Source of the DNA: Larimichthys crocea
Taxonomy: Eukaryota; Chordata; Actinopteri; Sciaenidae
DNA length: 64,000 bases
Assembly: GCF_000972845.2 (NCBI RefSeq)
Contig: NC_040022.1
Span: forward strand, 20,080,713 to 20,144,712
Direction: 5' to 3'
Position 1 is the first letter of the stretch. The number at the start of each line of letters is the position of its first letter. Made by a program: the position numbers and the translations under genes. The notes under the pieces are model-generated. The model did no database searches and had not been told where the DNA came from. It saw only the letters and a list, made by a program, of their open reading frames with translations. Of this stretch, positions 3,701-63,560 are shown piece by piece.

Positions 3701-6700
3701 GCTCAAGGTTACCATTGACATCCAACATTAGCCATAATTGTCTTTGACCTCAGCTCAGCCTTAAGCACAGTGGGCCATATTGTTTTAATCAGCTGTCTGA
3801 AGGTGATGGCATCAGTTAAAATAATGATGTGCTGCTGGATTGGTTCATGTCCTACTTGTTCAATAGGTTTTCATTGTAATGCTTAGAGCTGGATTCATTG
3901 GATTTTATTATTACCTTACCTAAACCATATCTATCAAGTCCTTACAAGTAAGTACAGTCGTCCCTCGCTATAACGCGGTTCACTTTTCGCGGACTCGCTG
4001 TTTCGCAGATTTTTTTCAGTGTAATTTTGCATGCTTTTTTTTTACAGCATAGTGTACAGTATGAACGTGCATTGTGTTCTGCGTACTAAATTGGCTAAGG
4101 GAGAACCACACATGTGTTCTGCGTCCTGATTAACTAAGGGAGTACTGTACAAAATGCGTGTAAAAAGGTGTATAAAAGTGTGTGGTTAGGGGTTTTACGG
4201 CCTTAAAACATGTATAATACTTGTAAAACTTACTTAGCGGATTTCGTTTTTTGCGGGTTATTTTTAGAACGTATCCCCCGCAATAAACGAGGGACCACTG
4301 TATTAACATTTATTTGACCTTAAATGAGGCTTAACTTTGACAGTTTGTCTTTTCTGTCAATATTATAACCAGGTCCAAAGCTAAAGTCAAGTCACAAGTA
4401 ACACTAAAACACAAAGATAGCTGCATCAACGGTGGGGGGCCTAGCAGCATAGCAGCATAACAGGCAAGCCTATGCCTACTCAGGAAGGAGTCATGAGTCC
4501 ATACACCAAGTTTTGTGTCGACTTCTTGTTTGGCAGCTTTGCTGCCGATTTGGATTGGCTGTTACGGCAAAAGAGTTTGAAGTTCAGACATGAAACTTCA
4601 ACCTTGAGCCAGCCATGGTCTGAAGACCATATCTATCAAGTTTCATGTAAATTGGACAAAGTGTGTGCCCTCTGTAATCATAAGCGTGTTTTTGACAAAA
4701 TTAAAATGGCTGCCAAATCTCTATGCATGTATTAGACAGTCCTTTAGCAAATGTACTGGGATGGCTGAGAATGTCAGTAAACACTGGAATCATGGTTAAA
4801 GTCCAAAGAAATATGAGCAAAAATGCAATTTTGCTAATTATAGTGCCCCCTAAAGGTCAAAGGTCACCAAAGTTCTTGGGCCTCTCAAAGAAGTGGTCAT
4901 GAGTCTGTTAGAAGTTTGAAGACAAAACATCAACTGTTGCCGAGATATGGCCTCACTACCTGAATGGCGGCATCGCCGCTGATTTTGATTGGCTGCTACG
5001 GGCAAACGGAAATTAAATCCAAATCAAATCAAATCAATTTTATTTGTATAGCCCAAAGTCACAAAGTACATTTGCCTCAGAGGGCTTTACAATCTGTACA
5101 GGGAGTGACACCCTCTGTCCTTAGACCCTCGGTTCGAGTGAGGAAAAACTTGCCCACAAAAAACCCTTTTAACAGGGAAAAATGTGGAAGAAACCTCAGG
5201 AAGAGCCACAGAGGAGGGATCCCTCTCCCAGGACGGACAGACGTGCAATGGATGTCACGTGTACAGGACAAATTAACACAAACATATTGTACAATTACAA
5301 TAACTGATAAAATGACAATGAATCACAATGAATGATAAAAATGATTACAGTAACAGATATGGTAGTAATAATGACAGTAATAATGCGTAGTGGACGTCAT
5401 GCAGGATCACAGCAGCAGCCACAGTCCACATGATGACTTTTGTGTGGCTTGGTCTAAAGATTCTGTGTGTCAAGTCTTGTGGAAATCAAACAATCTGCAT
5501 GACCTGAAATGCTTTTTGAAGGTTTTTGATAAAATTCAAAATGGTGGAAAATCCAATATGTGCCAATATGCAAATTGACACCATAGGGTTCGTTGAACTT
5601 GTCCTGATCCAAGGATTCCAACGGTACCTCATAATATAATAATAGGAAAAGCTACAAACACAATGGTTGCCTTCGCTGCTGGGCCCCCAATAAAAGATGA
5701 CAACACTTGGGTCAGTTGGGTCATGGACAGCTGCTAATGTTGTGGTCCATTAGTAAGGTAAAACATTTAACCCTCATTAAGAAAGCAGTCCACCTCTACT
5801 CAGCTCGTCTGTCCTCACTGTTGTAGTGACATTGTGCTGGTTCTTTAACATGGTGTCAATTTGTCTGAAGATTTTGTAAGTTAGGACTATTATTCTTCAT
5901 CAGGTTGGGTGAGATCAAAGTTGTTAAAACAGGGGTAAAATCATATGATTATTAAAACAGAACCACGCTTGTTGAGTACATTTTATTAGAATATTGTTTT
6001 TATTCCAGTCCTGTCACTAAAGCAACACCAGTTTTCGACTGACTGATGAGAACTTGGTCAGACGAGTTTACACTCCAACCCATCAATCAGCTGACTAGAA
6101 GGTGTAAAAAATATCATTTACAATATATTAATATATATTAAGAATGCTTAAGCGGTGAAGTGCTTGTCTCTTAGTTAAAGGATTTCTGCTCATCGTGGCA
6201 TGTATTATATAACTTCAGAGATTCAATGTGCCTTTAGTGCTGCTGTAACTGTAAAACACTACAATAAATTCTTGTCTTCTCCAGGCTTTGCAGGCTCCTG
6301 CTTGCCATGAAAACATGGTGAAGGTTGGAGGCTACATTCTGGGAGAGTTTGGTAACCTTATTGCTGGTGACCCACGCTCCAGGTATGTTGGCTTTCAGCT
6401 GCCAAGGCACTAAGTTGACTGACAAAATGATAAATGGTGACTTTGTTTTCCTGTCATTCAGCCCCCTGGTTCAGTTTAACCTTCTGCACTCCAAGTTCCA
6501 TCTGTGTTCCGTGCCCACCCGTGCCCTGCTGCTGTCAGCCTACATCAAGTTTATCAACCTATTCCCAGAGACTAAGGCCACCATCCAAGAGGTTCTGCGC
6601 TGCGACAGCCAGATCCGCAACTCAGATGTGGAACTGCAGCAACGTGCTGTCGAGTATCTGAAACTTTCTTCTATCGCGAGTACCGACGTCCTGGTTAGTT

Positions 6701-8815: not shown

Positions 8816-8853
<38 letters not shown>

Positions 8854-11462
8854 TATATGAGAGCAGTGTGTGCACATAAAGCAGAACACATTGTTGACTC
8901 GTTTTCAGTCTTCATGGTTGGCAGGTCTGCTGATCTGTCTGGTCTTTTTATCTTGCTGTGAGTGCTGTCTTTCGTCTTTTTCTCTCCTTCCTTCTCTCCA
9001 TTTCCCTGTGTGTGGGGTGTGGTGTGTGTGTGTGTGTGGGTGGGGGCGGGTGGGGTGTCTGGGTGTGTGTATGGGTGTGTGTGTTTTTTGATTTGAAGTG
9101 TGTCTGTCCCTGTCCTCTACTGATGGACATTGACAGAGATCTGGAACAGCCCACAGAGACCTCTGACTCCCTATTGGGTGGAGGGTTCTGGTGATTCGGA
9201 GTAAGGGCCCAGTAGTAAACTACAGAATCTTCTAGAAAAATACATCTATGCCAGCTCACAAGAGTTTTCTAGAGTTCAGGCCTTTTTGTCTTGAATGTCA
9301 TCAGTAATACACACTACACTAAGCACTTTTAAATAAAATGAAAATTATCTTATTCTTATTATAATTATTACACTGAGTGGCTGGCTTGATGCATGTCAGC
9401 TATTAGTTTACATAAAAGCAGCTGACTGGTTCTGTACATGTTAATACACACAAACACACTGTATACTGCTGCACTCACTGCAAGCAGGACAATAGTCTGG
9501 CAGAGCCATGAAAAAAAAGGTAACACAACTTTTCAGAACTGAACACATCACATCTGCTAAAGTGAATGTAAGTTATCGTGTCTTTGTATCCACCCGTGAT
9601 GGGAATATTAGCAAGTTAAAAAAATATATTTTTTAGTTAAATCATTGTGGAAGGGGGCACAATAATGAAAAGAGGTCCAGTTATAGCTCATGCTAAAAAA
9701 CAATGCTATTTTTAAATAATGTACATTAAAAAAGGTTTTTGTCCATGGCCAAACTCTGCAGTATTTCAGTTCATGTTTCTACATTTGAAGTGCAAATTGA
9801 AAATGCAGATGAAACATGGATGGAAACACACTTTCTGATGAGTAAGTAGACATTGCGTATAGTTTAATTGTGTATGTCACGCGAAGCTGCAAGATAAAAC
9901 CCCAAAGAATGTGCACATACACACATTATTTTGGCAGCAAAACGTTAATGGCATCAGGCTTTGTGTAGACTACATACAGTATGGCTGTCTTAACATGTGG
10001 ACAGTGTCAGCAGAGTGCAATCTGTACGCATTTGGACAGTGAATAATTTTTTTTGTTGTTTTGACTCGACTCAAACTGAACTCGCTGAGGTCAAAGTGCT
10101 GCTTGCTGTATGTAAACTGAAGCATTGTGACTCATTTGTATGCTGATGCAAAAGAGAGCAATAGGACAATGATGTGAATCAAAGCTGCACTTTCCCCTCA
10201 TGGGGATACTTTCATATATTATTCCCTGTGCTTGAGGTACAGAACAACACAGTAGAAATGTCCAAATCCATACACAGTGCACTGGATGCATATTTGTTAT
10301 GCAGTGTAAGTACAGACAGGCACCACCTCACTGTGTAATGGTACATTTTGCATAAACTGCTTTACTAACCTCTGCATTTGATCTTTTTATCCTTATTGCT
10401 CTCATCTTTCTCTTAACCAACCGTAATCACATGTGCTGTGTTGAATGGATGTCACATTTCTGTTTCATCCAATCATTCCTCATTTGTCCTGTTGCCTGTC
10501 TGTATCCATCTCTCTGTCCTGTGGGCTCTTCATCTCTTTGCTGTCCTGTGGTCTCTCAGCTCTGCTCCTCCCTCTGAGGACCTGCCCCCTCTGTCTGAGG
10601 CAGACGAACTTCTCCAACAAGTAAGCTCTTTTCTCTGTGCGTAGCTTTGTCATGTGTCAAGAAACATAACCACTTACTGTACATCCAGTAAACTGGGACT
10701 AAACTCCATTTACTGGTTTGAGTTTTGGTCAAGTGCAGCCATCTGACCAAAAAGTGGCTGTAATAATATCTGGAACTGATCCAGTCCTGATGTTGCAAAA
10801 GAAGTAAAGTCTAACCTTCATCTATGAACTATAAACTTCAGATGAGATTTTTCATTCTGTTGCGTTGGATGACTGTTTTTACCGTAGGTTTGTCTCTCCT
10901 GTCTATGTCTCTGAAGTTTCGACCTCTTGTAGACTCTGAGAAACAGGGCGTCATGACATCACAGCTCTTATGTGGACTAATCCATCAGAGCTGAGGACAA
11001 TAACAAAGCGCAGGCTCATGTGTCTCTGCTCTCACAATCAATAATATCTCGCATATCATTGAGTTCATCTTATATTCACAGGATATTTGCTCCTCTGTAG
11101 AAGTTACCAAGAGCTTGGCATGGAAATAGTTCAGCCTGGATACAATATCCAGATAGACACTTTTAGCCCATCTCAGTTGTAATGTTTTGTCCCTGCTGGT
11201 GACAGAAATGGTGATTTCAGCTGGTCAGAGCAGGATATTACAACATCTACACAAGATAATTCACATTATTATTGGGATCCCAATATATATATGTATATGT
11301 ATAATATATATGAGAGCAGTGTGTGCACATAAAGCAGAACACATTGTTGACTCGTTTTCAGTCTTCATGGTTGGCAGGTCTGCTGATCTTGTCTGGTCTT
11401 TTTATCTTGCTGTGTATGTGACTGTCTTTCGTCTTTTTCTCTCCTTCCCTTCTCTCCATTTC

Positions 11463-11502
<40 letters not shown>

Positions 11503-14467
11503 CGGGTGGGGTGTCTGCGTGTGTGTATGGGTGTGTGTGTTTTTGATTTGAATGTGTGTCTGTCTCCTGTCCTCTACCGTGATTGGACATTGACAGAGAT
11601 CTGGAACAGCCCACAGAGACCTCTGACTCCCTATTGGTGGAGGGTTCTGGTGATTCGGAGTAAGGGCCCAGTAGTAAACTACAGAATCTTCTAGAAAAAT
11701 ACATCTATGCCAGCTCCACAGAGTTTTTCTAGAGTTCAGGCCTTTTTGTCTTGAATGTCATCAGTAATACACACTACACTAAGCACTTTTAAATAAAATG
11801 AAAATTATTCTTATTCTTATTATAATTATTACACTGAGTGGCTGGCTTGATGCATGTCAGCTATTTAGGTTTACATAAAAGCAGCTGACTTGTTCTGTAC
11901 ATGTTAATACACACAATACACACTGTATACTGCTGCAACTCACTGCAAGCAGGACAATAGTCTGGCAGAGCCATGAAAAAAAAGGTAACACAACTTTTCA
12001 GAACTGAAACACATCATCTGCTAAAGTGAATGTAAGTTATCGTGTCTTTGTATCCACTCCTGTGATGGGAATATTAGCAAGTTAAAAAAAATATATTTTT
12101 TAGTTAAATCATTGTGGAAGGGGGCACAATAATGAAAAGAGGTCCAGTTATAGCTCAAGTGCTAAAAAACAATGCTATTTTTTAAATAATGTATCATTTA
12201 AAAAAGGTTTTTGTCCATGGCCAAACTCTGCAGTATTTCAGTTCATGTTTCTACATTTGAAGTGCAAATTGAAAATGCAGATGAAACATGGATGGAAACA
12301 CACTTTCTGATGAGTAAGTAGACATTGCGTATAGTTTAATTGTGTATGTCACGCGAAGCTGCAAGATTCAAACCCCAAAGAATGTGCACATACACACATT
12401 ATTTTGGCAGCAAAACGTTAATGGCATCAGGCTTTGTGTAGACTACATACAGTATGTGCTTCTTAACATGTGGACAGTGTCAGCAGAGTGCAATCTGTAC
12501 GCATTTGGACAGTGAATAATTTTTTTTGTTGTTTTGACTCGACTCAAACTGAACTCGCTGAGGTCAAAGTGCTGCTTGCTGTATGTAAACTGAAGCATTG
12601 TGACTCATTTTGTATGCTGATGCAAAAGAGAGCAATAGGACAATGATGTGAATCAAAGCTGCACTTTCCCCTCATGGGGATACTTTCATATATTATTCCC
12701 TGTGCTTGAGTACAGAACAACAACAGTAGAAATTGTCCAAATCCATACACAGTGCACTGGATGCATATTTGTTATGCAGTGTAAGTACCAGCAGGCACCA
12801 CCTCACTGTGTAATGGTATCATTTTGCATAAACTGCTTTTACTAACCTCTGCATTTGATCTTTTTATCCTTATTTCTTCTCATCTTTCTCTTAACCAACC
12901 GTAATCACACTTGCTGTGTTGAATGGATGTCACATTTCTGTTTCATCCAATCATTCCTCATTTGTCCTGTTGCCTGTCTGTATCCATCTCTCTGTCCTGT
13001 GGGCTCTTCATCTCTTTGCTGTCCTGTGGTCTCTCAGCTCTGCTCCTCCCTCTGAGGATCCTGCCCCTCCTCTGTCTGAGGCAGACGAACTTCTCAACAA
13101 GTAAGCTCTTTCTCTGTGCGTAAGCTTTGTCATGTGTCAAGAAACATAACCACTTACTGTACATCCAGTAAACTGGGACTAAACTCCATTTACTGGTTTG
13201 AGTTTTGGTCAAGTGCAGCCATCTGACCAAAATAGTGCTGTAATAATATCTGGAACTGATCCAGTCCTGATGTTGCAAAAGAAGTAAAGTCTAACCTTCA
13301 TCTATGAACTATAAACTTCAGATGAGATTCTTTTCATTCTGTTGCGTTGGATGACTGTTTTTACCGTAGGTTTGTCTCTCCTGTCTATGTCTCTGAAGTT
13401 TCGACCTCTTGTAGACTCTGAGAAACAGGGCGTCATGACATCACAGCTCTTATTGTGACTAATCCATCAGAGCTGAGGACAATAACAAAGCTGCAGGCTC
13501 ATTGTGTCTCTGCTCTCACAATCAATAATATCTCGCATATCATTGAGTTCATCTTATATTCACAAAGCCTTTTTTTCTTTGTTTTGACCAATAGTTCACG
13601 ATATTTATTGATCTTTAATGAAGGCCACAAGCAATTAGATGGTTGAGTTACTCATTCTCCCCCAGCATTGTCTCAGTAAGAGAGAAATGCATCCTGATAG
13701 TTCAGAATTGTGTTCACTGAATTAGTTCTCAAGAGCCTGGAATGAAGGCAGAGAGGGAGATCTCTCTCTCTTTAAGAAAAGCAGAGTGCACTGTGAAGAT
13801 GAATGACATTAATGATAATCAAAATTCACTCACTCAGTCATTGTTGTGTGGGTGTGCACGTGAAAATAAAGTGCAAAGGATGAATAAGTTAGTGATATGA
13901 ATACCAACATGATATGATCCTTGATGCAATACTATCTTCTGATTGGTGCCTGACAGATCAGTGCACCCATAGTAATAACATGACTGGGTCACATTTGTTG
14001 GGACATTGTGTCGAGTGTCTCCATGTTCTAGGAACTGTTTCACCAGTACCTAGTGACAGTTTAGTTAAAGGTGTTGACTAACCATTTAAATGCTTTCATG
14101 CTACAGGTTTGTGTGCAAGAATAATGGAGTTCTGTTTGAGAATCAACTGCTACAGATCGGCATCAAGTCAGAGTATCGCCAGAATCTGGGTAAGTTGTCT
14201 ACAGATGTTGTACTGAGTTTCCATGATCATAGAGTGGCACCCTCACGACTGTATGACAAGCAGCATGATGATAAATGGTCTTTGTTGTATTCATGTTGTC
14301 AACACTCCGTGGTTTGTTGCCAGGTGGATTGCTCTGACATATTTGATACTTTGACTATGAACTCAGAATGCTCCATAAAATGCAGATGTTAATATAACAG
14401 AATGACCTGTTTGTCTCTCTCTGTCTCTCTGTCTCTCTCTGTCTCTCTGTCTCTCTCTCTCTCTCTG

Positions 14468-20269: not shown

Positions 20270-20540
20270 CTCGCTCAGGTGGTAGAGTGAGTTGTCTAGC
20301 AGGATTCTTCTCCTCAGTCAAGTTTAACTGTCCTCAAACAAGATACTAAACCCCAAATTGCTCCAGATGACTGTGCAAATGTGTATAAATGAGCTTTGTG
20401 TCATTGTGAACGCTTTGGATAGGAAGCACTGTATAACTCCTGATGAGCAGTTGATGATTCTGCATGGCAACCTCTGCCATCAGTGTATGGATGTGTGTCA
20501 ATGGGTGAATGTGACAAGTGTTGTAAAGTGCTTTGAGTAG
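20270..20540 (+). repeat. tRNA-like SINE family copy, diverged
   Basis: Starts CGCTCAGGTGGTAGAGTGAG and continues with CAAGATACTAAACCCCAAAT and GGGTGAATGTGACAAGTG. It has the same layout as the copy at 19060, in the opposite orientation. Its end overlaps the 480-bp repeat that recurs at 25232. Confidence 0.65.
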
Positions 20541-20985
20541 TCTGCAGAAGCTTCTCAGCTAATTTCTTCTGTTTCCCTGATTTGATCTTGTGAAAGTTTC
20601 AAATGTTTGCAGGGATTTGGATAAAATAGAGACAAGTTGTGTGTAACTGCATGTCTTGAGGAGCAGCCTGAAGATAAAACAAAAGTACTGTGTGCAGGTG
20701 ATCAGTGCTTTATTCTATCGGGGTCTCTGCTGTAAAATAAGTCCTTTAATTATTTTTTAAGAAGTGGATGGAAAAGTGAAAATTGTCCAAATGTACATTT
20801 ACATATCTTCCAAAAAATGGTAATATGCTAATTCGGGTTTCATATTAAACATGCTCATGGTGGAATTGTTGGTCTCTGTAAATAATATTAGGAAGAGTAC
20901 AGTCTAGACCTGCTCTGTATGAAAAGTGTCATGAGATAACTTTTGTTATGATATGGCGTCATATAAATAAAATTGAATTGAAATT
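20499..20985 (+). repeat. 480-bp direct repeat flanking the phosphatase gene, left copy
   Basis: Runs from GGGTGAATGTGACAAGTGTT to ATAAATAAAATTGAATTG and is almost identical to 25232-25737. Differences are a few substitutions and two short indels. Confidence 0.85.
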
Positions 20986-25231: not shown

Positions 25232-25737
25232 GCTATCACCAATGGGTGAATGTGACAAGTGTTGTAAAGTGCTTTGAGTAGTCTGCAGAAGCTTCTCAGC
25301 TAATTTCTTCTGATTTGATCTTGTGAAAGTTTCAAATGTTTGCAGGGATTTGGATGAAATAGAGACGAGTTGTGTGTAACTGCATGTCTTGAGGAGCAGC
25401 CTGAAGATAAAACAAAAGTACTGTGTGCAGGTGATCAGTGCTTTATTCTATCGCGGTCTCTGCTGTAAAATAAGTCCTTTAATTATTTTTTAAGAAGTGG
25501 ATGGAAAAGTGAAAAATAGTCCAAATGTACATGTACATATCTTCCATATTAGAAATGATATGAACAAAAAATGGTAATATGCTAATTCGGGTTTCATATT
25601 AAACATGCTCATGGTGGAATTGTTGGTCTCTGTAAATAATATTAGGAAGAGTACAGTCTAGACCTGCTCTGTATGAAAAGTGTCATGAGATAACTTTTGT
25701 TATGATATGGCGTCATATAAATAAAATTTAATTGAAT
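25232..25737 (+). repeat. 480-bp direct repeat flanking the phosphatase gene, right copy
   Basis: The counterpart of 20499-20985. It lacks the CTGTTTCC piece and has an extra block of about 20 bp near 25545. The tail GGCGTCATATAAATAAAATT is typical of a fish interspersed repeat, so two separate insertions are as likely as a duplication. Confidence 0.85.
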
Positions 25738-39600: not shown

Positions 39601-42600
39601 CTGTCCTTCAACAAGGCACCGAGAGTCTCTTACTAGACTAAACAGCACGATAACGACTAAAGAACAATCAGAACAGATCAGAACAAACAGAAAGTGCTCA
39701 ACATATTAACTTATTTTAACAGAAATATCTGCAAAGCAACACCGAATATACAAGCAATAATTTACATAAACATCAGGATTATACAGTATTTTAGAATGAC
39801 AAACTCAGACTCTTGAAATTTTTATTCAACTCATCCTGTGCCAGAGGTCACACCACCAGCTAAGTGAATTTGATTAAGATTTTAACGCTTCATTCAGAAC
39901 ATTAATGTACATTTGAATTTTTTTTTGCACACTCTTACAGCTTCTCAATCACTCTCAGCGGCCGCTCACTCACACACACAACTCTTAATCTCTTTCATGC
40001 GTCTCTGTTCACACTTGGCACCCATGCACACTGTATACTCACTGTATATTTTTACTTCATAAAAGATTTTTATGATAATATTTTATAATTTTTATGGGAG
40101 TTACTAAATTTATTCTCCCTGTACCCACAGTCAATTTATTACGAATTATAATCTGGTTTTACTATAATTCCTCTTCCCCCGGGCCCAAAAGCTACTGCAG
40201 TACAAACCACACATTAACACAAAACAAAGACAAAGCAAAACACACAAAACCTAACCTTAGGCTCACTACTGTAGTTCAGTTTCTGTAGGATCCCCCGAAC
40301 ACAGGTCAACACAACACAAAGTCTAACCTTAGACTTAACTTCTGTAGTTCAGTTTCTGTAGGATCCCCTCTAAGGATCCCCCGAACACAGGTCAACACAA
40401 CACAAAGTCTAACCTTAGACTTAACTTCTGTAGTTCAGTTTCTGTAGGATCCCCTCTTAGGATCCCCCGAACACAGGTCAACACAACACAAAGTCTAACC
40501 TTAGACTTAACTTCTGTAGTTCAGTTTCTGTAGGATCCCCTCTAAGGATCCCCCGAACACAGGTCAACACAACACAAAGTCTAACCTTAGACTTAACTTC
40601 TGTAGTTCAGTTTCTGTAGGATCCCCTCTAAGGATCCCCCGAACACAGGTCAACACAACACAAAGTCTAACCTTAGACTTAACTTCTGTAGTTCAGTTTC
40701 TGTAGGATCCCCTCTTAGGATCCCCCGAACACAGGTCAACACAACACAAAGTCTAACCTTAGACTTAACTTCTGTAGTTCAGTTTCTGTAGGATCCCCTC
40801 TAAGGATCCCCCGAACACAGGTCAACACAACACAAAGTCTAACCTTAGACTTAACTTCTGTAGTTCAGTTTCTGTAGGATCCCCTCTTAGGATCCCCCGA
40901 ACACAGGTCAACACAACACAAAGTCTAACCTTAGACTTAACTTCTGTAGTTCAGTTTCTGTAGGATCCCCTCTAAGGATCCCCCGAACACAGGTCAACAC
41001 AACACAAAGTCTAACCTTAGACTTAACTTCTGTAGTTCAGTTTCTGTAGGATCCCCTCTTAGGATCCCCCGAACACAGGTCAACACAACACAAAGTCTAA
41101 CCTTAGACTTAACTTCTGTAGTTCAGTTTCTGTAGGATCCCCTCTTAGGATGCCCCGAACACAGGTCGACACAGCACAAAACACAAAGCAGCCTCAAAGC
41201 TTCAATAAAACACACATACTTCAAGTCTTTCTTTCAGGTCCAATTCACAATTTTGACTCGAGTCTTTAATTTGTTAAAGCACACAAAAGGCAACCCCCTT
41301 TACTCTCCCTCTGAACTTCTCACCACTACGGGGGGGCTTTTGCATGGGTGGGCTCGGATCAGCAGCTGTACATCCAACATCTAACTTTGGAATTTCTTTT
41401 TTGGAGAGAATGTTTGATACAAGTTACTGCACTTAGGTCTGGGTGAGACTGCAATAAAGTGGCAAGAAATGTCTTACCTTTTTATGACGGCCGTTTTACA
41501 GTGTCTCCCAGTCCAAGATGCAGCCAGCAGATCAGTTCTTCTCTTCCAATCCCATCCTCGTCGCCAATTATGTTGTGGAGAAAACCTTCCAGAACGCAAT
41601 GAAATAACAACACGGAGACAGCTGCTTGCGAATCCGAACGAACCTTTACTTTTACTTTTCACAACCTTTTATACCCATTTTTACGTCATTCTTACATCAC
41701 TGTTACATAGTAAAATCACCAGATCTGGACCCAAATGTCCTGTACTTTCTTATAATCATATGTCTGTGTTCTGAGCGTCACATGAACGTCATATTGTCTA
41801 TGTGTTTCCTTTATCATGTTCTATTCAAAAGTCCATATGCGTCACGCAGAACACCACACCAGTGCTCTGGCACGCTGGCAACCTGCTGGGAGAGCTGCTG
41901 CTCCTCCAACTAAAACCTTTCTAAAACTTTGTGAAGGTGTCCTCATGGTGATTGTAAGAGACAGTGAAAGCTGAAACAATACAAGCCACACAAAACTGAG
42001 GCTACCATCCACCATGATATCTTGTTGCTATCATACATATTTTTCCAACATCAGTCTTACCACTTTTAAAGTAACCTCATACTCAGCAAACCTTTTAAAA
42101 CCTTCTATCTTCTCCCTGAGCTAACCTCCTCACAACAGAGTAATGTACAGGTGCATCACTCATTGTTGAAGTGAATGGAGAGCATAATGAGAGCACTAGC
42201 ACTGTTTTCTTTGTCTGCAGATCTCCAGGGAAGATGCTCAGGCATTTGCCAGAGAAAACAGGATCCACTACATGGAGGCTTCAGCCAAGAATCGCTACAA
42301 CGTGGATGAGGCCTTTCTGGAGCTTGTGCAGATTATCAGGTATAGTTATTAAGGTACAAGGAGTATGTTTGTCATAGTTTGTTTGGGCTTTTATCTGCCA
42401 TTAGTCTCTAAATATTTAGTCTGTTATCTTATCTTAGTTTTCCATTTTCTCCACTGCAAACATTTGCACCTCGACTGGTTCCTTTCTGCGTGGAGTTTGC
42501 ATGTTCTCCTCGTGTCTGTGTGGGGTCTCTCCAGGTACTCTGGCTTCCTCTCACAGTCACAGTAAAGACATGGACCTGAACAGGTTAACCGATGACTCTA

Positions 42601-54421: not shown

Positions 54422-54684
54422 AAAGACAAGTCTTTCAAAATAAGAGTCCCTTCAAAATAATAGCCCATTAAAAAGGCAATGATGACACAGCTTGTTGTAT
54501 TAATACTAAATTTGCTGAGCGTACAGACAGGACAGACACACACACTCTGACACACACACAAACAGACAGGACAAGCACACATACATACAGACACAAGACC
54601 ACACAAGCACACACAAACACACACGCACACAAACAAGACAAAAGTATTTCAAAATAAGAGTCCCTTCAAACTAAGAGCTCATTA
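53850..54684. other. prr12 intron 1, repeat-rich
   Basis: Contains CA microsatellites (54389-54418 and 54535-54640). A short extra piece of the inverted-arm repeat (CATTAAAAAGGCAATGATGA) lies at about 54467-54525, as a direct copy of 54684-54740. Confidence 0.6.
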
Positions 54685-55415
54685 AAAAGGCAATGATGAC
54701 ACAGCTTGTTGTATTAATACTGAATTTGCTGAGTGTCAATAATAATGTATGGCGGCGATGGGGCATATTCAAGATTTCTTTAGAAATGTTTCTATTTTTC
54801 TTATTATTCTTCCGTACATTTTTTGGTCGTCTTCTCCGCCTGCAGTTTTGGTCGCACATACACAAAAAAGGTATCAAAATGACCGACTTGGCCAGATTAG
54901 TATGCTATGACTTTCCTAAGCGTTTCGGAAAACGGTGTGCCTAAAAATTGCCAAAAAATTAATGGGTTTGTATTGGTAGAATGTTCCAGAGCTAGAGTGC
55001 GTGACATCATAGCTAGAGTGGAGAGGGAGAGAAAAATTTCATCAAAAAATAAATTTGCTCCACAAATGTCATAAATTATAGCTAGAAACATAGGAAAATT
55101 TGTCATCTCACTCATATTCATCTGCTAAAGCTGTCAGATATATAGTTTGGTTGTGGGATGCAAAGATGTGACAGTAACACGCACCCACTGTCCCATCTAC
55201 TCCCATGTAATTTCTAAAAGGAGCACGGAGTAGCTGTTCTTTCTCAAATTCCCGAGGTCAGAGTTTTTTTTAACATTTAGCCCTCAAACTCGACACAGAA
55301 CTGGTCGACAAGATGAGGATGCTCATGGTCATTCGGCTTTTGGATACGCCACACGGTCTGGCATTTTTGGCCACCTGTTCGAGGGGGTTAATTTAGAGAT
55401 TTTCGGTGTCGCATG
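54685..55415 (+). repeat. Left arm of a 750-bp inverted repeat
   Basis: Blocks AAAAAGGCAATGATGACACA, GTCGCACATACACAAAA, ACATCATAGCTAGAGTG and CTGGCATTTTTGGCCACC occur in the same order on the opposite strand at 60411-61185. The arms have diverged by many indels. Confidence 0.8.
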
Positions 55416-55526
55416 CGTGCACCTGTGCCTAATTACTGGCTTGCAGCTGACCCTGGTTGCAGTGTCAATAATAATGTTTGGGGAATGCGGGGCCAGAGTC
55501 AGGCACACTCAAAATTTCTTTTGAAA

Positions 55527-55567
<41 letters not shown>

Positions 55568-56190: not shown

Positions 56191-56254
56191 AATAACAAGC
56201 CTTGTTATTCACTGTGACACTGGGTAATTTCTCATCAGATGTAATATTATTATT

Positions 56255-56440
56255 ATTACAATATTGTTGCCTGTGGAGTCCCTCGAGGTTCTATCTAAGG
56301 GCCCCTTCTGTTCAACATCTACATGCTCCCACTTGGCAAAAATTATTAGAAGTCATAACATTGAATTCCATAGCTACGCAGACAATACACAACTGTACAT
56401 CGCGGTATCCCCACAAGACTTCACCCCAATAAAAAAAAAA
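56255..56440 (+). mobile_element. L2-like LINE reverse transcriptase fragment, left part
   Basis: Encodes a CGVPRGS-type motif (TGTGGAGTCCCTCGAGGTTC) and YADNTQLYIAV, a changed YADD box. The LINE resumes at 60052 on the other side of the long-TIR element. Confidence 0.75.
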
Positions 56441-56458
56441 AAAGTTAAGGGAAGTTAA

Positions 56459-56730
56459 GTGACTTTTGACTTCAAGTCATGATGCAAAGGCATGGAAGTA
56501 CCTTAGGGCCATAGAAATAAATTTATCCTAAGACACAAGTGAGATCACATTTTGTATCCAAAATATGCATTTTTTTTCAAAATGGCCACCAACCATACTT
56601 GAGGTCCATATCTTTGCTCCTGTCATAGCTATAATGACAAATTTGGTGTCAAAGTGTACAAGTGGGGTCAAGGAATCCAATAAAATAGGTTTCAAGTTTT
56701 AAAAAAACAAAATTGTTCCCTTTTAATAAG
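56459..56730 (+). repeat. Left terminal inverted repeat of the 3.6-kb element
   Basis: Pairs with 59745-60047 over nearly its whole length, with scattered mismatches and small gaps. Confidence 0.8.
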
Positions 56731-56959
56731 TGTTGAATTTGTGTATTATGGGTAGAGTAGTGGAACAACAATAACTATGTTCACAGATTAGGGGTAGGCA
56801 ATGCTATACCTACAATAGTGATGAAGACTCATAGTTTAGTGTAAATACATCACTAAGATGATTTTCTATTTAGACATCCGCACCACTGTGGGAACATGAG
56901 CCATGACATCCACAGAGAGACATGCAAGGCAGCCTCTGCAAGGTGCTTTACAATCAGTT

Positions 56960-59130
56960 TTACACTTGCAAATTACAAGTTCTGGTAAGTAAAAGGCTGA
57001 GGGGTGAGATCGCTCAGCTCATCATTGTCATTTGTTGCCATCTCCATGTTCTGATCATAAGCCTTCTTCATGAGCACATAGAGAGCAGCTACAGACACTT
57101 AATGTATCGGGTTCTGCAGATGTGGTGAACATTAATAAAGGCCTGCGTTTTGCCACTAGTTGAGATGCCACTATTGGTAAGAGCTGTGGTCCACCCACTG
57201 CCATCTAGCCAGTCACCAGACACACTCCACAGCATCTTCTCGATATGCGTTGACCCCAGTGTTACCAGGAAGGAATCCTCACCAAGCTCTGTCTGGAAAA
57301 AAACTTCCACTGAAGTTTCTTGGCCAGTGTGAATAGTGGTTGATCAGCTACAATGACTGGTGTCTGACCTGGATTAAGGTAGCTGTCTGAGGATTTTCAT
57401 TGCATGCCAAGCCATGGTGGGGCTGGTAGATGACTCTGTGAACAGTGGCAACATGTATGATTTGGATGGGGGGGTGAAGTAGCCTCTGTAATGCTGGCAT
57501 AATATGCAGCCCATGAGATTAATTCTCTGGCTTCAAGGTTCTCTTTTATAAGAAGGCTTCTGACTCTCTCTAACCACTTCTTCAGTTACATTGATGAGAA
57601 GACGGGAGGCTGGATGACGATGACTGTTGGTATTCAAGACAGGAACATCCAGATCCATGGTTGTGTAGTGAAGTGGCAAGGATTTCACATACTTCTTCCC
57701 CATTTCAGCTGGATCTAGAATGTCAGTCAGATTCTCAGTCTGTCTGAAGAGAAGTGCTGTTGAATGGTGATGCATGTTCCATGGAGGGCTGATGTTGCTG
57801 TTGTTGATGATGGGTTGTGGTCAATGTTATCAAAACCACCCGTGGTGAAGACACCCGTGACTGCCTGAGGTGGGACCACAACACCAATCTGCTCCCAGTG
57901 ACTGATCACTGAATTCGCTATATCTGTGCTAAATGTTTTCAAGCGGTCATATGACACACACATTCGTCTTTTATGCATGGTCTCCACCAGATATGTACTA
58001 CCACTTTGCTGGTGTAGTTTCATTGCCAGATCTAGTGAAGCTGGTGTTTCCCTCTCTCTTATGTGACGAGGAACACTGCCATGTTTCTTTGATCTGCATC
58101 TTACAGAGTTGAAAATGATTTGCTGCCCAATGGATATTGCAGCCTGGGACTTCTCAGATGCAGGATGTGGCTGATCAATACCTGGAGGTATAGAATGAGC
58201 TTCACAAGAAGTTGAGAAAGAACCTGTAAAAGTATGCTTCATGGGGAGATACTCTTGCCGAAGGATTTTGGCTGCTTTGAAGATGATGGAGACATCAGTA
58301 GATGTGTTGTTTTTCATGTCGGCAACAGCTTTGCTCAGGTCATTATCAAATACAAGTGACCATACACGATTTATTTGTACTGATCTGATGTCAGGAATCA
58401 GCCGTTCAATATCCTCCCGAGGTCGTGGGGTGTTGCATTTGATGTTTGGAAATCCCAGATTAGCAATGCGCTCGTCATAGAGGGCTGTCAGGTAAGACAT
58501 CACCAGTGATTCCCCTGAGCAGCGATAGCCTTCGATGTATTCAAGCAACTCATTGAGGACATGCACTGATGACCTGAGTTGCATTACTTTCAGTTGAGTC
58601 ACATCCAACAGTTTCTGCTTTTCTATAGAGTCTAGTTAGGCATGCACAATGATAAACAGCATTAATAGCAACCATGTCACCAGCAGCTAGTTCAGCCAAT
58701 AGATGCCTGTCACCAACCACCTGAGCACATTCTTTTACTTTTCTATCCAAGCCAAGGGTGGCAGCCCTCCTCAGTTCCTTTTTGTTGCCCACTTCACCAC
58801 AGAAGAGACACGGTGTATTGAATGGTTCACATGATGATGTTGAGGGTGTGGGTGAAGTCAGTTTGGTGGACTCGTCACTCATGCGCCATGTTTTTACTGG
58901 GCTGACAGACTCTTCATGCTTTTTTCTTTTTCTTGCTCTCTGAACCTTTTGTTTATCAGTAGCATTTCTGCAGCTTTTGTGCCATACCACAGTATTTTGA
59001 ATCATCAGCTGAACTACATCCTGTCTACCACCACTAATGTCCACTATAAACTCAGGCAGATCCCCTAATGCCTTCAGCTCCTGGATGTTTTCTACAGCTT
59101 CTTTGTAACATGATTGCAATCTTTCAGGAT
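56960..59130 (-). pseudogene. Decayed gene for a multi-domain protein of unknown function (multicopy fish/cnidarian family)
   Basis: Read on the - strand in at least four frames: 59119-58550, 58608-57727, 57775-57533 shifting into another frame, then 57310-57089. Order of features: a Lys/Arg-rich N-terminus; a C-X2-C...H-X2-C-type region (PCLFCGEVGNKKEL ... VYHCACLTRLY); a helical ELLEYIEGYRCSGES stretch; a middle with SIGQQIIFNSV; and a conserved C-terminal block (STHIEKMLWSVSGDWLDGSGW). These blocks recall proteins annotated only as 'uncharacterized' in many fish and coral genomes. At least three frameshifts separate the blocks. No DDE or tyrosine-recombinase signature was identified. Its place inside an inverted-repeat element suggests that it is, or rode with, a transposase. 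Confidence 0.65.
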
Positions 59131-59744
59131 TGTTTCTCAGTTTAAATGATGAAGAGGGATATCATGTTTTCTCCATCTGTAGGGCAGACTGACAAAGGAA
59201 GCATAAACTCCAGCATAAATTCCATTATGGTTAATCTAAAATAACAAATGAAGTTGCTTTAATATCATGAGCAAAATAAAATGAGTATTAACAAACATCC
59301 ACAAATGTAAAAAATTATCAAATAGCTAACTATCTAGCAACATGTGCTTGCTTGAATAATAATGAATCTAACTAGCTAATAACTAGCTAGCTAGCTAGCT
59401 AGTTATTAGCTATATAACATTAAAAACGTTTTTCTATTCAATGACAAAGTCATAGGAACCTCAAAGTGTTAACCTGTCACCTCTGATCTTCAAAGGCTGT
59501 CAGCTCAGCTGTCACAGGCCCTGGTGCAGATGGGATCCGATGTGTTGTTGCAGGAAGTGATTTGCAGAGGCTACTCCTGACTGGTTGAAATCTCATGCTA
59601 CTAAGGACAAACGTAGTGTACAGAAATACCTTCACTGCTGAACTACAAAAATGAAACTCAAAAAGTTTTTGAAGGAAAAGATAAGTAAAGTCACTCTGAT
59701 GACACATTTTCTTTGTGTGAAATGTCCTTATTTACCTCCAATTG
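59131..59744. other. Interior of the 3.6-kb element, 5' of its gene
   Basis: AT-rich, with a CTAGCTAGCTAG run at about 59386-59405. It may hold the promoter or a first exon. Nothing was recognised. Confidence 0.4.
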
Positions 59745-60047
59745 TCATATTAAGGGGAAAACTGTTGTTTTTTAAACTTGTAACCTATTATATTGGATTT
59801 CTTGACGCCAAAAATGTACACTTTGACACCAAGTTTGTCATTATAGCGATAACAGAAGCAAAGATATAGACTCTAGAGTATTTTCAGTGCATTGGCGGCC
59901 ATTTTTTGAAAAAAGGTGTTTATTTCTGATACAAAATGTGATCTCACTTGTGTCTTAGGATAAATTTATTTGTATGACCCTAATGTACTTCCATGCCAAA
60001 GGGCACCTTTGCATCATAACTTGAAGTCAAAGGCCTATTTTTTGGGC
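59745..60047 (-). repeat. Right terminal inverted repeat of the 3.6-kb element
   Basis: Inverted copy of 56459-56730. Its outer end reads GCCTATTTTTTGGGC next to TTAA. Confidence 0.8.
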
Positions 60048-60051
60048 TTAA

Positions 60052-60410
60052 CCTCCCTACTACTAGGCCGCTTACAATTAATACAGAACTCTGCCGTCTG
60101 AGTACTGAAAAAGACCAGACAGAGGGCACATATAACCCCCATTTTAAAAGCCTTGCACTGGTTACCCCAATTTTAGAATTGATTTTAAGATTCTCTTAAT
60201 GGCCTACCATTGTGACATGCTACAAAAGTATGTACCAAGCAGATCCCTCAAATCCTCGGCATCTGGACTCCTAGTTGTCCCCAGAACCTCCACAAAGAAG
60301 TTTGGTGAGGCTGCTTTTAGCTACTGCAGCCCCCATCTCTGGAACAGCCTGCCTATAGATCAGAGGGACTGCACCTCTGTAGACATTTGTGTTTCTGTCT
60401 CTCCCCTGAG
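60052..60410 (+). mobile_element. L2-like LINE reverse transcriptase fragment, right part
   Basis: Reads LLLGRLQLIQNSA, then SRSLKSSASGLLVVPR and FGEAAFSYCSPHLWNSLP. These phrases are typical of the 3' end of L2/Rex LINE open frames. It follows the same LINE at 56255-56440, with a gap in between that includes the 3.6-kb element. Confidence 0.85.
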
Positions 60411-61185
60411 ACACACAGAAAATCTCTAAATGAACCCGTCGAAGGTGGCCAAAAATGCCAAAAAGGTGTGCCGCAAACCAAAAGCTGAAATGACCATCAA
60501 CATCCTCATCTTGTGGACAATTTTCTTACCAGCAAAAAATTGTATAAACTCTGGCCTTGGGAAAAACAGGTGTTCCCTGCTTCTTTTGGAAATTTCTCTT
60601 CTCAAATTAACATGGGAGTAGATTTGGCAGTAGATGCATGTTGCTGGTGCATCTTTGTGTCTGACCCCAAAACTATAAAACTGACAGCTTCAGTAGTGTT
60701 ATCACTACCACGCCTCAAATTTTCCTACATTTTTAGTGGTAATCATGTCTGTAGAGTGACATTTGCAGCCTCGAGCACAGTTTACAAATGTATTTTTCGA
60801 CAGATTTTTCTAGCGATGATGTCACACTCTAGCTCTCTAACATTCATTTTTTTGCCGTGGTTTTTGACTATTTTTAGGCAAACCGTTGTTGAAACGCTTA
60901 GATAGCGCTTTTGTGTATGTGCGACCAAAACTGTGGGAAGGGAAACAAACCGTAAAGAAAAAAAAAAAAAAAAAAAAAGTAAGAATATATAATAAACATT
61001 GTGTACAGTAAAGAGTGTGCTCTTTCAGGCACACTCAATTAGAAACATTTCTAAAGACATTTTGAGTGTGCCTGACCGTCACCCACATACATTATTATTG
61101 ACAGTGCTCAGCAAATTCAGTATTAATACAACAAGCTATGTCATCATTGCCTTTTTAATGGGCTACTATTATGAAGGGATCAATC
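60411..61185 (-). repeat. Right arm of the 750-bp inverted repeat
   Basis: Reverse-complement counterpart of 54685-55415. A homopolymer A run lies at about 60958-60978. A second, partial copy of the same family lies at about 61490-61745. Confidence 0.8.
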
Positions 61186-61489
61186 AGAGCAGAGCAGTCA
61201 ACCGCAGCTGCTCCTGTGACATTTGACATCGCTGAGAGAGAGAAAAAAAACACTGGAAGTACCCGTCAAACAGGAAGGATTTCTGGCCAAACCGTATTTC
61301 CAATCATTGAACCGGCTTCACCTTTAGTATGTTGAGCTCTTCCTGAATGTATACATAGGTATTTTGTGTCCGTAAAATTAAGAAATGTGACCTTGGAGCG
61401 ATACATAGAAACGCTACTTCTGCTTTCCTCCAGAAATGTTCCCACCTTTTTAACATGGCTGTGAGGCTGTGGATAGGTTAGGATAGGTA

Positions 61490-61745
61490 TTATTTCTGTA
61501 GAGTGAAATTTGTGTCCTTGAGAGCGGTTTACAAATAAATTTTTTGACAGTTTTTTTCTCTCCCTCTGTACTCTAGCGATGATGTCACCAACTGTAGCTC
61601 GCAAACATTCTTCCAATACACACCCATTCATTTTTTGCCGTGTTTTTTGGCGATTTTTAGGCAAAGCGTTAGTCATAGCATACCGATCCTGGCTGAGCCG
61701 CACGTTTTGATACCTTTTTTGTGTATGTGCGACAAAAACCGCAAG
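61490..61745 (-). repeat. Partial extra copy of the arm repeat
   Basis: On the - strand starts TGTCGCACATACACAAAAAA and continues with GGTGACATCATCGCTAGAGT, as in 54850-55040. Confidence 0.75.
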
Positions 61746-61947
61746 AGGACTAGCGTGCTAAAATAGGGAGTTAGAATAATAACTTGAAAAAATTGCATTT
61801 CCTGTGGAAATAGTGTGGATGCCCTCTGCTGAAATGCCTGATGCATCTGTGGAAACTTGTATGAAAAGATAGAACTGTAGGATATTTTGAAATATGGTAT
61901 GAATTTGTACAATATAGTAACAAAGATTACCTGGAAAAAGTTGAGTA

Positions 61948-62680
61948 CCGTATTTTCCGCACTATGAGGCGCATCAGATTATAAGGCGCACTTTGAATGA
62001 ATGGCCCATTTTAAAACTGTTTTCATATATAGGGTGCACCGCATTATAAGGCGCATCGAATAATAGCTACAGTAGTGGCTGGGGTTGCGTTATGCATCCA
62101 CTAGATGGAGCTGCGCTAAAGGTAATGTCAACAAAACAGTCAGATAAGTCAGTCAAACTTTATTAATAGAATATTGACGTATACGTTCTGACAACTCCAT
62201 TCACTCCCAAAATGAATAAACAGCTGTTTTATTATTTGTCCCAAGGTAATGTCAGTGACGTAGTATTTTCGCGACACAAATGGTGTTGGACTGGAATTCC
62301 TCTTTACCGTTCTTACCGCTGTTACTTCCATAGACATATATACATAGACGCCTCATTGAGCAGGTTGGTCCATTGCTGCAATACGTTAACGTGTCCGCCA
62401 TATTGGATGTGGCAGATCTGCCCGTAAACTAATACAAGGAAAAGGGTTGCGCTCTACTTTGCCACATCCAAAATGGCGTCGACATCGACGTACGATTCAG
62501 CGCTCAATGCGGCGTCTACGTATATATGTCTATGGTTACTTCGGCGATGCCCCCTGACTATGGTAGCCATGATTAACCAGTATTTATCCATAGATAAGGC
62601 GCATCGGATTATAAGGCGCACTGTCGGCTTTTGAGAAAATTGAAGGCTTTTAGGTGCGCCTTATAGTGTGGAAAATACAG
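61948..62680. mobile_element. MITE with TA target duplication (AAGGCGCA family)
   Basis: The ends are inverted: CCGTATTTTCCGCACTATGA and the complement of CTGTATTTTCCACACTATAA. TA lies on both sides (61946-61947 and 62681-62682). Internal GATTATAAGGCGCA repeats are typical of this widespread fish MITE. It is interrupted by a second MITE at 62329-62534. Confidence 0.85.
62329..62534. mobile_element. Nested hAT-type MITE with 8-bp target duplication
   Basis: Terminal inverted repeats CATAGACATATATACATAGA and TCTACGTATATATGTCTATG. The duplication GTTACTTC lies at 62321-62328 and 62535-62542. The 206-bp element is non-coding. Eight-base duplications are diagnostic of hAT transposition. Confidence 0.9.
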
Positions 62681-62682
62681 TA

Positions 62683-63560
62683 ATCTTTCTATATTTGCAA
62701 TATTTATACTGTTCATTCCGTTTATACTGCTATATTTGCCATAATCTTTATTTATACTTTTAACTTGTATATATGTTTATATAATGTATTACATGTCATG
62801 TATATTGCTGTTTGCACCAGGGAAAGAATGGAAATGCTACTTCAATTCTCTGTATGTACTGTACACATAGCAGCATTGACAATAAAGTTGAATGACCGAA
62901 ATTCCTATGTGGAGTCTCCGTGGTCCCAACAATATTGTAACAACGTGTGAAATTACCTGGAAAAAGTTGAGTAATCTTTCTATATTTGCAATATTTATAC
63001 TGCTATATTTGCCATACTTATACCTTATACTTTTATATATTTTTTATATGTTATCTATAACATCTGTCGGGCTTCTCAGAGGCAGACGTGAGGTTGCCAA
63101 GCAACGAGTGCCATCTGCCGGGCCCTAATTAGATCAGTGTGTGTGTCATACTGACTGTTAGTGCTGCAAACGGCAGGACGTACCCGACAGATAAAGTCGT
63201 GTAGTGGCCAAACTGACTTTATTGCTAGTAGCATGAGGCTTTCCTGATTGTGTAGGTATTTGTCTTATGTGACTTCCGGTATGGAAAGGACTTCAAGCAT
63301 TCGGGAGAGAAACTGGTTTGTCTTCTGCCCTGCAGAAAAAACCCTCCTTTTCATATGAGGGTTAATGGGTGTACTGCAGGGATTAGCTGGTGCTTTTCAG
63401 GTCACAGTGCAAAAACGGGGCATCCACACTAATAAGCCATTTTTTCGGGAATAGTATATAGTGCACCTTGCAAGGCACAGTCATTTAAGTATGGGGAATA
63501 ATAGATAGTGTGCTCTTTCTGGCATGCTCAATAAGAATAATTATAAAGAATAAGTATGGG
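62683..63560. other. prr12 intron 1, short local duplication
   Basis: 62951-63030 repeats the sequence on both sides of the MITE (ATTACCTGGAAAAAGTTGAG then TAATCTTTCTATATTTGCAA) without the MITE. The rest is AT-rich and unassigned. Confidence 0.8.

Follow-up and report, generated by a model that had tools for sequence, protein, structure and literature searches.

The DNA transposons closest to the element described here are likely those of the Academ kind, whose AcademX members reportedly encode a nuclease that Kojima, in 2020, is said to have typed as XPG. In published descriptions, AcademX insertions carry target duplications of 3 or 4 bp and AcademH insertions duplications of 9 or 10 bp, a difference tied to the encoded nuclease or helicase (PMC10045372); Academ elements of bivalves have a mean length of 5,565 bp (PMC10294476); and Academ is reported in zebrafish, medaka and stickleback and given as absent from tetraodon (PMC4746887). 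Here, we analyse a stretch of 64,000 nucleotides from the fish Larimichthys crocea (hereafter the window; contig NC_040022.1, C12:20080713-20144712). An element at 56442-60062 of this window is, quite probably, a fossil, internally deleted cut-and-paste DNA transposon of the Academ kind (AcademX-type). It was placed by published Academ descriptions, and its membership is likely and not proven.

Ends and gene of the element

The element is 3.6 kb long and carries its gene on the minus strand; its right end is firm and its left end is placed to within about 8 bp. Inverted ends of about 280 bp, as claimed in the original prediction, are indeed present. In a 14-kb self-comparison, the arms at 56465-56728 and 59748-60031 are 80.8% identical over 287 columns (E 6.6e-70), with 76-91% identity in ungapped blocks. 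The left terminal inverted repeat (TIR; plus strand) extends over 56442-56728, its bases outside the aligned part being presumed, while the right TIR (minus strand), on the side of the 5' end of the gene, extends over 59748-60062, its outer bases being taken from L006, a one-ended copy on C16. The right tip reads TAGTAGGGAGGTTAAG from the outside in, and is of the TAGT...ACTA type that we also found in L017, a related locus treated below; the right end at 60062 is set by the divergence from L006. The left end, at about 56442, is A-rich and eroded, and the stretch matched by eye to the right tip is AAGTTAAGGGAAGTTAAG, beside a run of A.

Between the arms there is a single decayed gene, as the original prediction also held, running on the minus strand from 59212 to about 56891 in at least nine frame pieces, with an in-frame stop near the N-terminus. 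The preserved frame starts at 59048-59212 with the stop and the zinc-type motif WSLCFLCQ (69% identity to residues 6-60 of the relative P0002, E 2.5e-24). Piece 1 (58613-59158) contains WHKSCR and the zinc-type region CLFC...YHCACL, and piece 2 (57751-58620) a helical and winged-helix-like region together with the first acidic block, DNIDHN (57811-57831). Pieces 3 to 6 (57298-57745) are frameshifted and end in VADQPLFTLAKK, where 57343-57345 encode the second conserved Asp; piece 7 (57095-57295) carries the block HIEKML...GDWLDGSGW. Piece 8 (56979-57098) is the last before an internal deletion and corresponds to residues 765-803 of P0001 (67% over 57107-56991). The junction of this deletion lies at approximately 56976-56992, where about 700 residues, comprising the HEQ block, the FEN1/XPG nuclease and a linker, are missing. 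Beyond it, a C-terminal CXC-type cysteine motif at 56891-56982 is read, with one frameshift, as ELVICKCKTDCKAPCR and LPCMSLCGCHGSCS.

By tblastn, the gene corresponds to residues 24-775 of the 1,525-residue protein P0071, and the next coding is the tail from about residue 1,491. When the tails of eight relatives were compared under lax settings, six matched the CXC tail at 56982 (E 4.6e-5 to 0.004), while those of P0105 and P0061 gave no match there. The window copy is thus an internal-deletion derivative that decayed further, and the deletion is a feature absent from the original prediction. Because it is frame-broken and devoid of two conserved blocks, this copy should be inactive for its own movement; the nuclease is gone from it and so, probably, is the third catalytic residue, which belongs to the HEQ block. 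Its ends could once have been mobilised by an intact relative.

Protein relatives

Searches of protein databases, each scoring about 8,000 candidates that shared most words, retrieved 54 proteins with a read-through of the window gene as query and 373 with one longer hit as query, the best 120 of these 373 being considered here. The named sources were Epinephelus, Patiria, Mya and Priapulus in the first search and, among the best 120 of 373, Actinostola, Oculina, Branchiostoma, Capitella and Nematostella in the second; P0015 from Epinephelus coioides, for example, matches at 73% over 37% of the query. Full-length members, known from protein entries alone, have about 1,520 residues: zinc motifs at the N-terminus are followed by a core in which acidic residues are invariant, by a nuclease of the FEN1/XPG fold and by a CXC tail. 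Three alignments (A1, 20 sequences; A2, 31; A3, 54) show, in order, the motifs DWxLCxxCQ, WHKSCR, CxFC...YHxxCL, DNIDHN, DQPL, GGLHxE, HEQxN, VWDxY, HEEADTR, TVDTDV, TGCDT and the terminal CXC cysteine motif. The zinc-type region (CxFC...YHxxCL) and the HIEKML...GDWLDGSGW block, both singled out in the original prediction, are conserved in this family.

In the nuclease, D727, D766, E860, E861, D863, D886 and D888 are present in all 54 sequences of A3, and D945 in 53 of 53. We take these acidic residues to be the metal-binding positions of FEN1, as assigned by eye. By these residues, the C-terminal domain of the relatives falls within the FEN1/XPG nuclease superfamily. In a search of a viral structure library with the model of P0137, residues of about 700-1060 had as their best match Allo54 of the lake sturgeon herpesvirus, an alloherpesvirus (E 2.8e-5), which ranked above named XRN/FEN1 nucleases, the matching domain being a presumed one. 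Searches for relatives in viral contigs and prokaryote genomes gave 6, 24 and 21 pattern matches, none of which was confirmed.

Nine family proteins matched no Pfam family above cut-off, and a tenth, P0053, matched receptor domains. DUF6589 (PF20231; cut-off 27 bits) scored 34.7 bits in P0092, 28.3 bits in P0110 and 27.5 bits (0.5 above cut-off) in L017; it fell below cut-off in P0165 and P0137, and was matched in 4 of the 31 A2 members at E up to 0.1. In the matching members it spans a part of the core that begins near the second Asp and takes in the HEQ block. As DUF6589 overlaps the core of P0092, P0110 and L017, further proteins with this domain may likewise be transposases. The window pieces matched no Pfam family at cut-off, in agreement with the earlier statement that the gene bears no known transposase signature; this absence is partly due, nonetheless, to the deletion of the DUF6589-matching stretch.

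Some database entries need separate comment. The gene model P0055 matches DDE_Tnp_4 at residues 2-49, outside the conserved part of the family, and looks like a fused model. Similarly, P0053, a Priapulus model named as a glutamate receptor, holds a 60% identical piece of the transposon protein over 17% of the query alongside its receptor domains, and probably reflects either an insertion or the fusion of gene models. Finally, the end of P0001 and P0003-P0005 (LLILQV followed by divergent residues) was rejected as the true C-terminus, as it looks like intron read-through.

A related family with 3-bp duplications

The genome assembly searched comprises 657.9 Mb in 9,907 contigs, and copy counts are to be read as lower bounds. 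A protein search of it found L017, a 6.5-kb element at C13:37.65 Mb, whose coding part consists of two long overlapping pieces of 546 and 1,100 codons between stops that together span the protein, from its zinc motif at the N-terminus as far as the CXC tail. Its protein is 21-28% identical to the window family (P0071, E 4.7e-74), and its inverted arms are 92% identical over 339 columns, with TAGT tips. Because this independent family has the same protein architecture between long TIRs of its own, the protein is very probably the own gene of the window element, and the earlier reading of the locus as a DNA transposon with long TIRs is upheld.

A search with the L017 arm gave 14 matches, all of which were extended into their surroundings apart from one of 108 bases that lies at the end of contig C8711. 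Both ends are present at five places, and 3-bp duplications are found in five of five (four by script, one by eye). The repeats of the four script-tested copies, directly outside the tips TAGTCCGG...CCGGACTA, are TGA, TAA, CGA and CAC; in two of the four, the right tip differs by one change and its end was placed from the BLAST match. In these four copies a displacement of the tips by 1 to 5 bases either way abolishes the 3-bp repeats, and none of 12 cross-pairings of flanks shares a 3-bp repeat. The fifth copy, L035, has a left tip one base short and TTA/TTA duplications by eye. Of the remaining candidates, L036 and L035 have the same right flank, so that L036 does not count as independent, and L014, a contig of 1,076 bases, has a single end. 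Deletion derivatives of 2.7-4.6 kb make up four of the five two-ended copies, a kind of decay also seen in the window.

The TTAA letters and copy L006

TTAA occurs in the window at 56445-56448, 56455-56458 and 60048-60051; TTAA at both edges had been read in the original prediction as a sign of a piggyBac- or Kolobok-like cut. L006 corrects this reading. It is 93.3% identical to window 59401-60062, and the identity passes the right-hand TTAA, which L006 keeps, and 11 bp beyond it (CCTCC[C/T]TACTA, 10/11 identical), with a one-base length difference immediately before the TTAA. If TTAA were the duplicated target, those 11 bp would be unrelated flanks in L006; TTAA is thus internal to the element, 11 bp from the right tip, and was rejected as a target-site duplication.

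The window locus alone cannot show a duplication: a putative CTA lies on the right, no counterpart is visible on the left, and the neighbouring pieces of long interspersed nuclear element (LINE) do not join cleanly.

Other copies and surroundings

The DNA search with both arms found the window, the one-ended C16 copy and two 86-bp patches on C13, which are 94% identical to window 56725-56810 and have no arm. The protein search gave eight matches: three window pieces, two pieces of L016 and three distant relatives (L013/L017, L014 and L015/L018). Intact copies, on which the original prediction had made its case depend, were not among the three loci of the window subfamily that these assembly-wide searches found.

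L016 (5142-5486), on C12 about 19 kb outside the window, holds a fragment 97% identical to window 57037-57432 and interrupted by about 345 bp of inserted sequence; the insert ends in (TGATTC)n, has a 4-bp overlap at its flanks and resembles a short retroposon insertion. L018, at about 4676-5926, is a third and more distant relative with the blocks NNIDINEETLDGKGTFHASQ and FDEQLYCKA and one internal stop. Dispersed repeats near the window element recur near L006: window 61938-62696 is 91% identical to L006 40-795 over 760 bp, and window 61235-61477 is 79% identical to L006 5138-5384 over 248 bp, starting about 9 bp outside the L006 tip.

The transposon is located in a nest of repeats. By reading, its left flank (56228-56441, plus strand) is a reverse transcriptase piece with YADNTQLYIAV, and its right flank (60063-60429, plus strand) a downstream piece of a similar element, with RLQLIQNSA...ALHWLP; we take both to be LINE pieces, which, like the P0015 match, have a teleost look, and neither had a Pfam match (searched at E up to 1 for the left flank). 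The LINE stretch expected between them is absent, which leaves no clean empty site. A second set of inverted repeats, at 54447-55537 and 60413-61791, encloses the LINE pieces and the element (blocks 69-95% identical, with internal duplications). Elsewhere in the window there are a tandem array of an 86-bp unit at 40200-41273 (up to 100% identity between registers), a direct duplication of about 2.2 kb at 8830-11009 and 11283-13491 (spacing about 2.47 kb, blocks mostly 94-100%) and a direct repeat of about 480 bp at 20499-20982 and 25240-25736 (99% in blocks, about 4.74 kb apart).

Discussion

The element had appeared to be a TTAA transposon, a reading that is corrected here. The original prediction had proposed a new type of DNA transposon, and this is probably wrong, since the FEN1/XPG-type nuclease of the relatives and the 3-bp duplications fit the published descriptions of AcademX. 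The nuclease is present in full-length relatives and lost from the window copy, while the duplication of 3-4 bp is seen in the L017 family and unreadable at the window copy. We infer that, in an intact element, the zinc and winged-helix-like parts would bind the TIRs, that the acidic core would act as an RNase H-like transposase, cutting the ends and joining them to a target cut with a 3-bp stagger, and that the XPG-like nuclease would trim the flaps or gaps that excision or integration leaves behind. A widespread and thinly described animal protein family, with hundreds of entries, is a probable transposase-plus-nuclease of long-TIR transposons. Moreover, this genome offers a full-length relative and short derivatives for comparison, which makes the role of the fused flap nuclease testable.

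The best surviving alternative, though unlikely, is that the family is an undescribed animal superfamily, other than Academ, in which an RNase H-like transposase is joined to a flap nuclease of the FEN1/XPG type and to a DNA-binding CXC tail, the same nuclease type having been reached by convergence. Within Pfam, the core is touched by DUF6589 alone, a family of unknown function for which a literature search gave a single paper, off the subject; among the papers searched, none has both 'Academ' and 'XPG' as whole words. The listed protein names are hypothetical or uncharacterized, except for two Tesmin/TSO1-like CXC domain-containing proteins, one predicted protein and one receptor model. Against this, the nuclease type, the 3-bp duplications, the size (6.5 kb versus a mean of 5.6 kb) and the host range all fit published Academ. 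Were it a separate superfamily, one protein would both cut and repair-trim the element ends.

It is considerably less plausible that the protein is a passenger gene and that the real transposase is encoded elsewhere. Lacking both the nuclease and the HEQ block, the window copy would now be unable to act by itself, and the activity of the core is predicted from sequence, both of which would suit a passenger. However, the stretches of at least 150 codons between stops in L017 are two pieces of the family protein and one overlapping stretch of 170 codons on the opposite strand, and the invariant acidic residues fall on strands and helices where an RNase H-like nuclease would be expected to have them. 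An element of the piggyBac or Kolobok type that duplicates TTAA is hardly credible: TTAA letters do stand close to both ends, but L006 continues past the right-hand one to 60062, the related L017 family makes 3-bp duplications, neither transposase family was matched in Pfam scans (for the piggyBac domain, window pieces and relatives at E up to 1 and A2 at up to 0.1), and the tips TAGT...ACTA, in L017 and at the right end of the window element, begin with TA, whereas Kolobok termini are described as 5'-RR...YY-3' (PMC9587614).

Returning to the AcademX-type assignment, the comparison with known systems is as follows. P-element and Transib transposases have no sequence match to the family, and their scores fall in an equivocal range. 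Kolobok and piggyBac share with the window element a DNA transposon organization with TIRs and both target TTAA, but differ in that TTAA lies within the present element, 3 bp are duplicated in the related family and their transposase domains are not matched. DUF6589 matches the core of P0092, P0110 and L017 around the HEQ block, a stretch deleted from the window copy. The L017 family resembles the window element in the order of zinc motifs, acidic core and CXC tail, in its long TIRs and in its TAGT tips; unlike the window copy, it retains the FEN1/XPG-like motifs and the DUF6589-matching core, its TIR sequence is different, and it has several copies and derivatives as against three loci of the window subfamily. 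With AcademX, the shared features are a long protein with a nuclease, seen in the relatives, the 3-bp duplications of the L017 family and a teleost host; in size, L017 has 6.5 kb against a published Academ mean of about 5.6 kb, while the window copy, without the nuclease, has been deleted to 3.6 kb.
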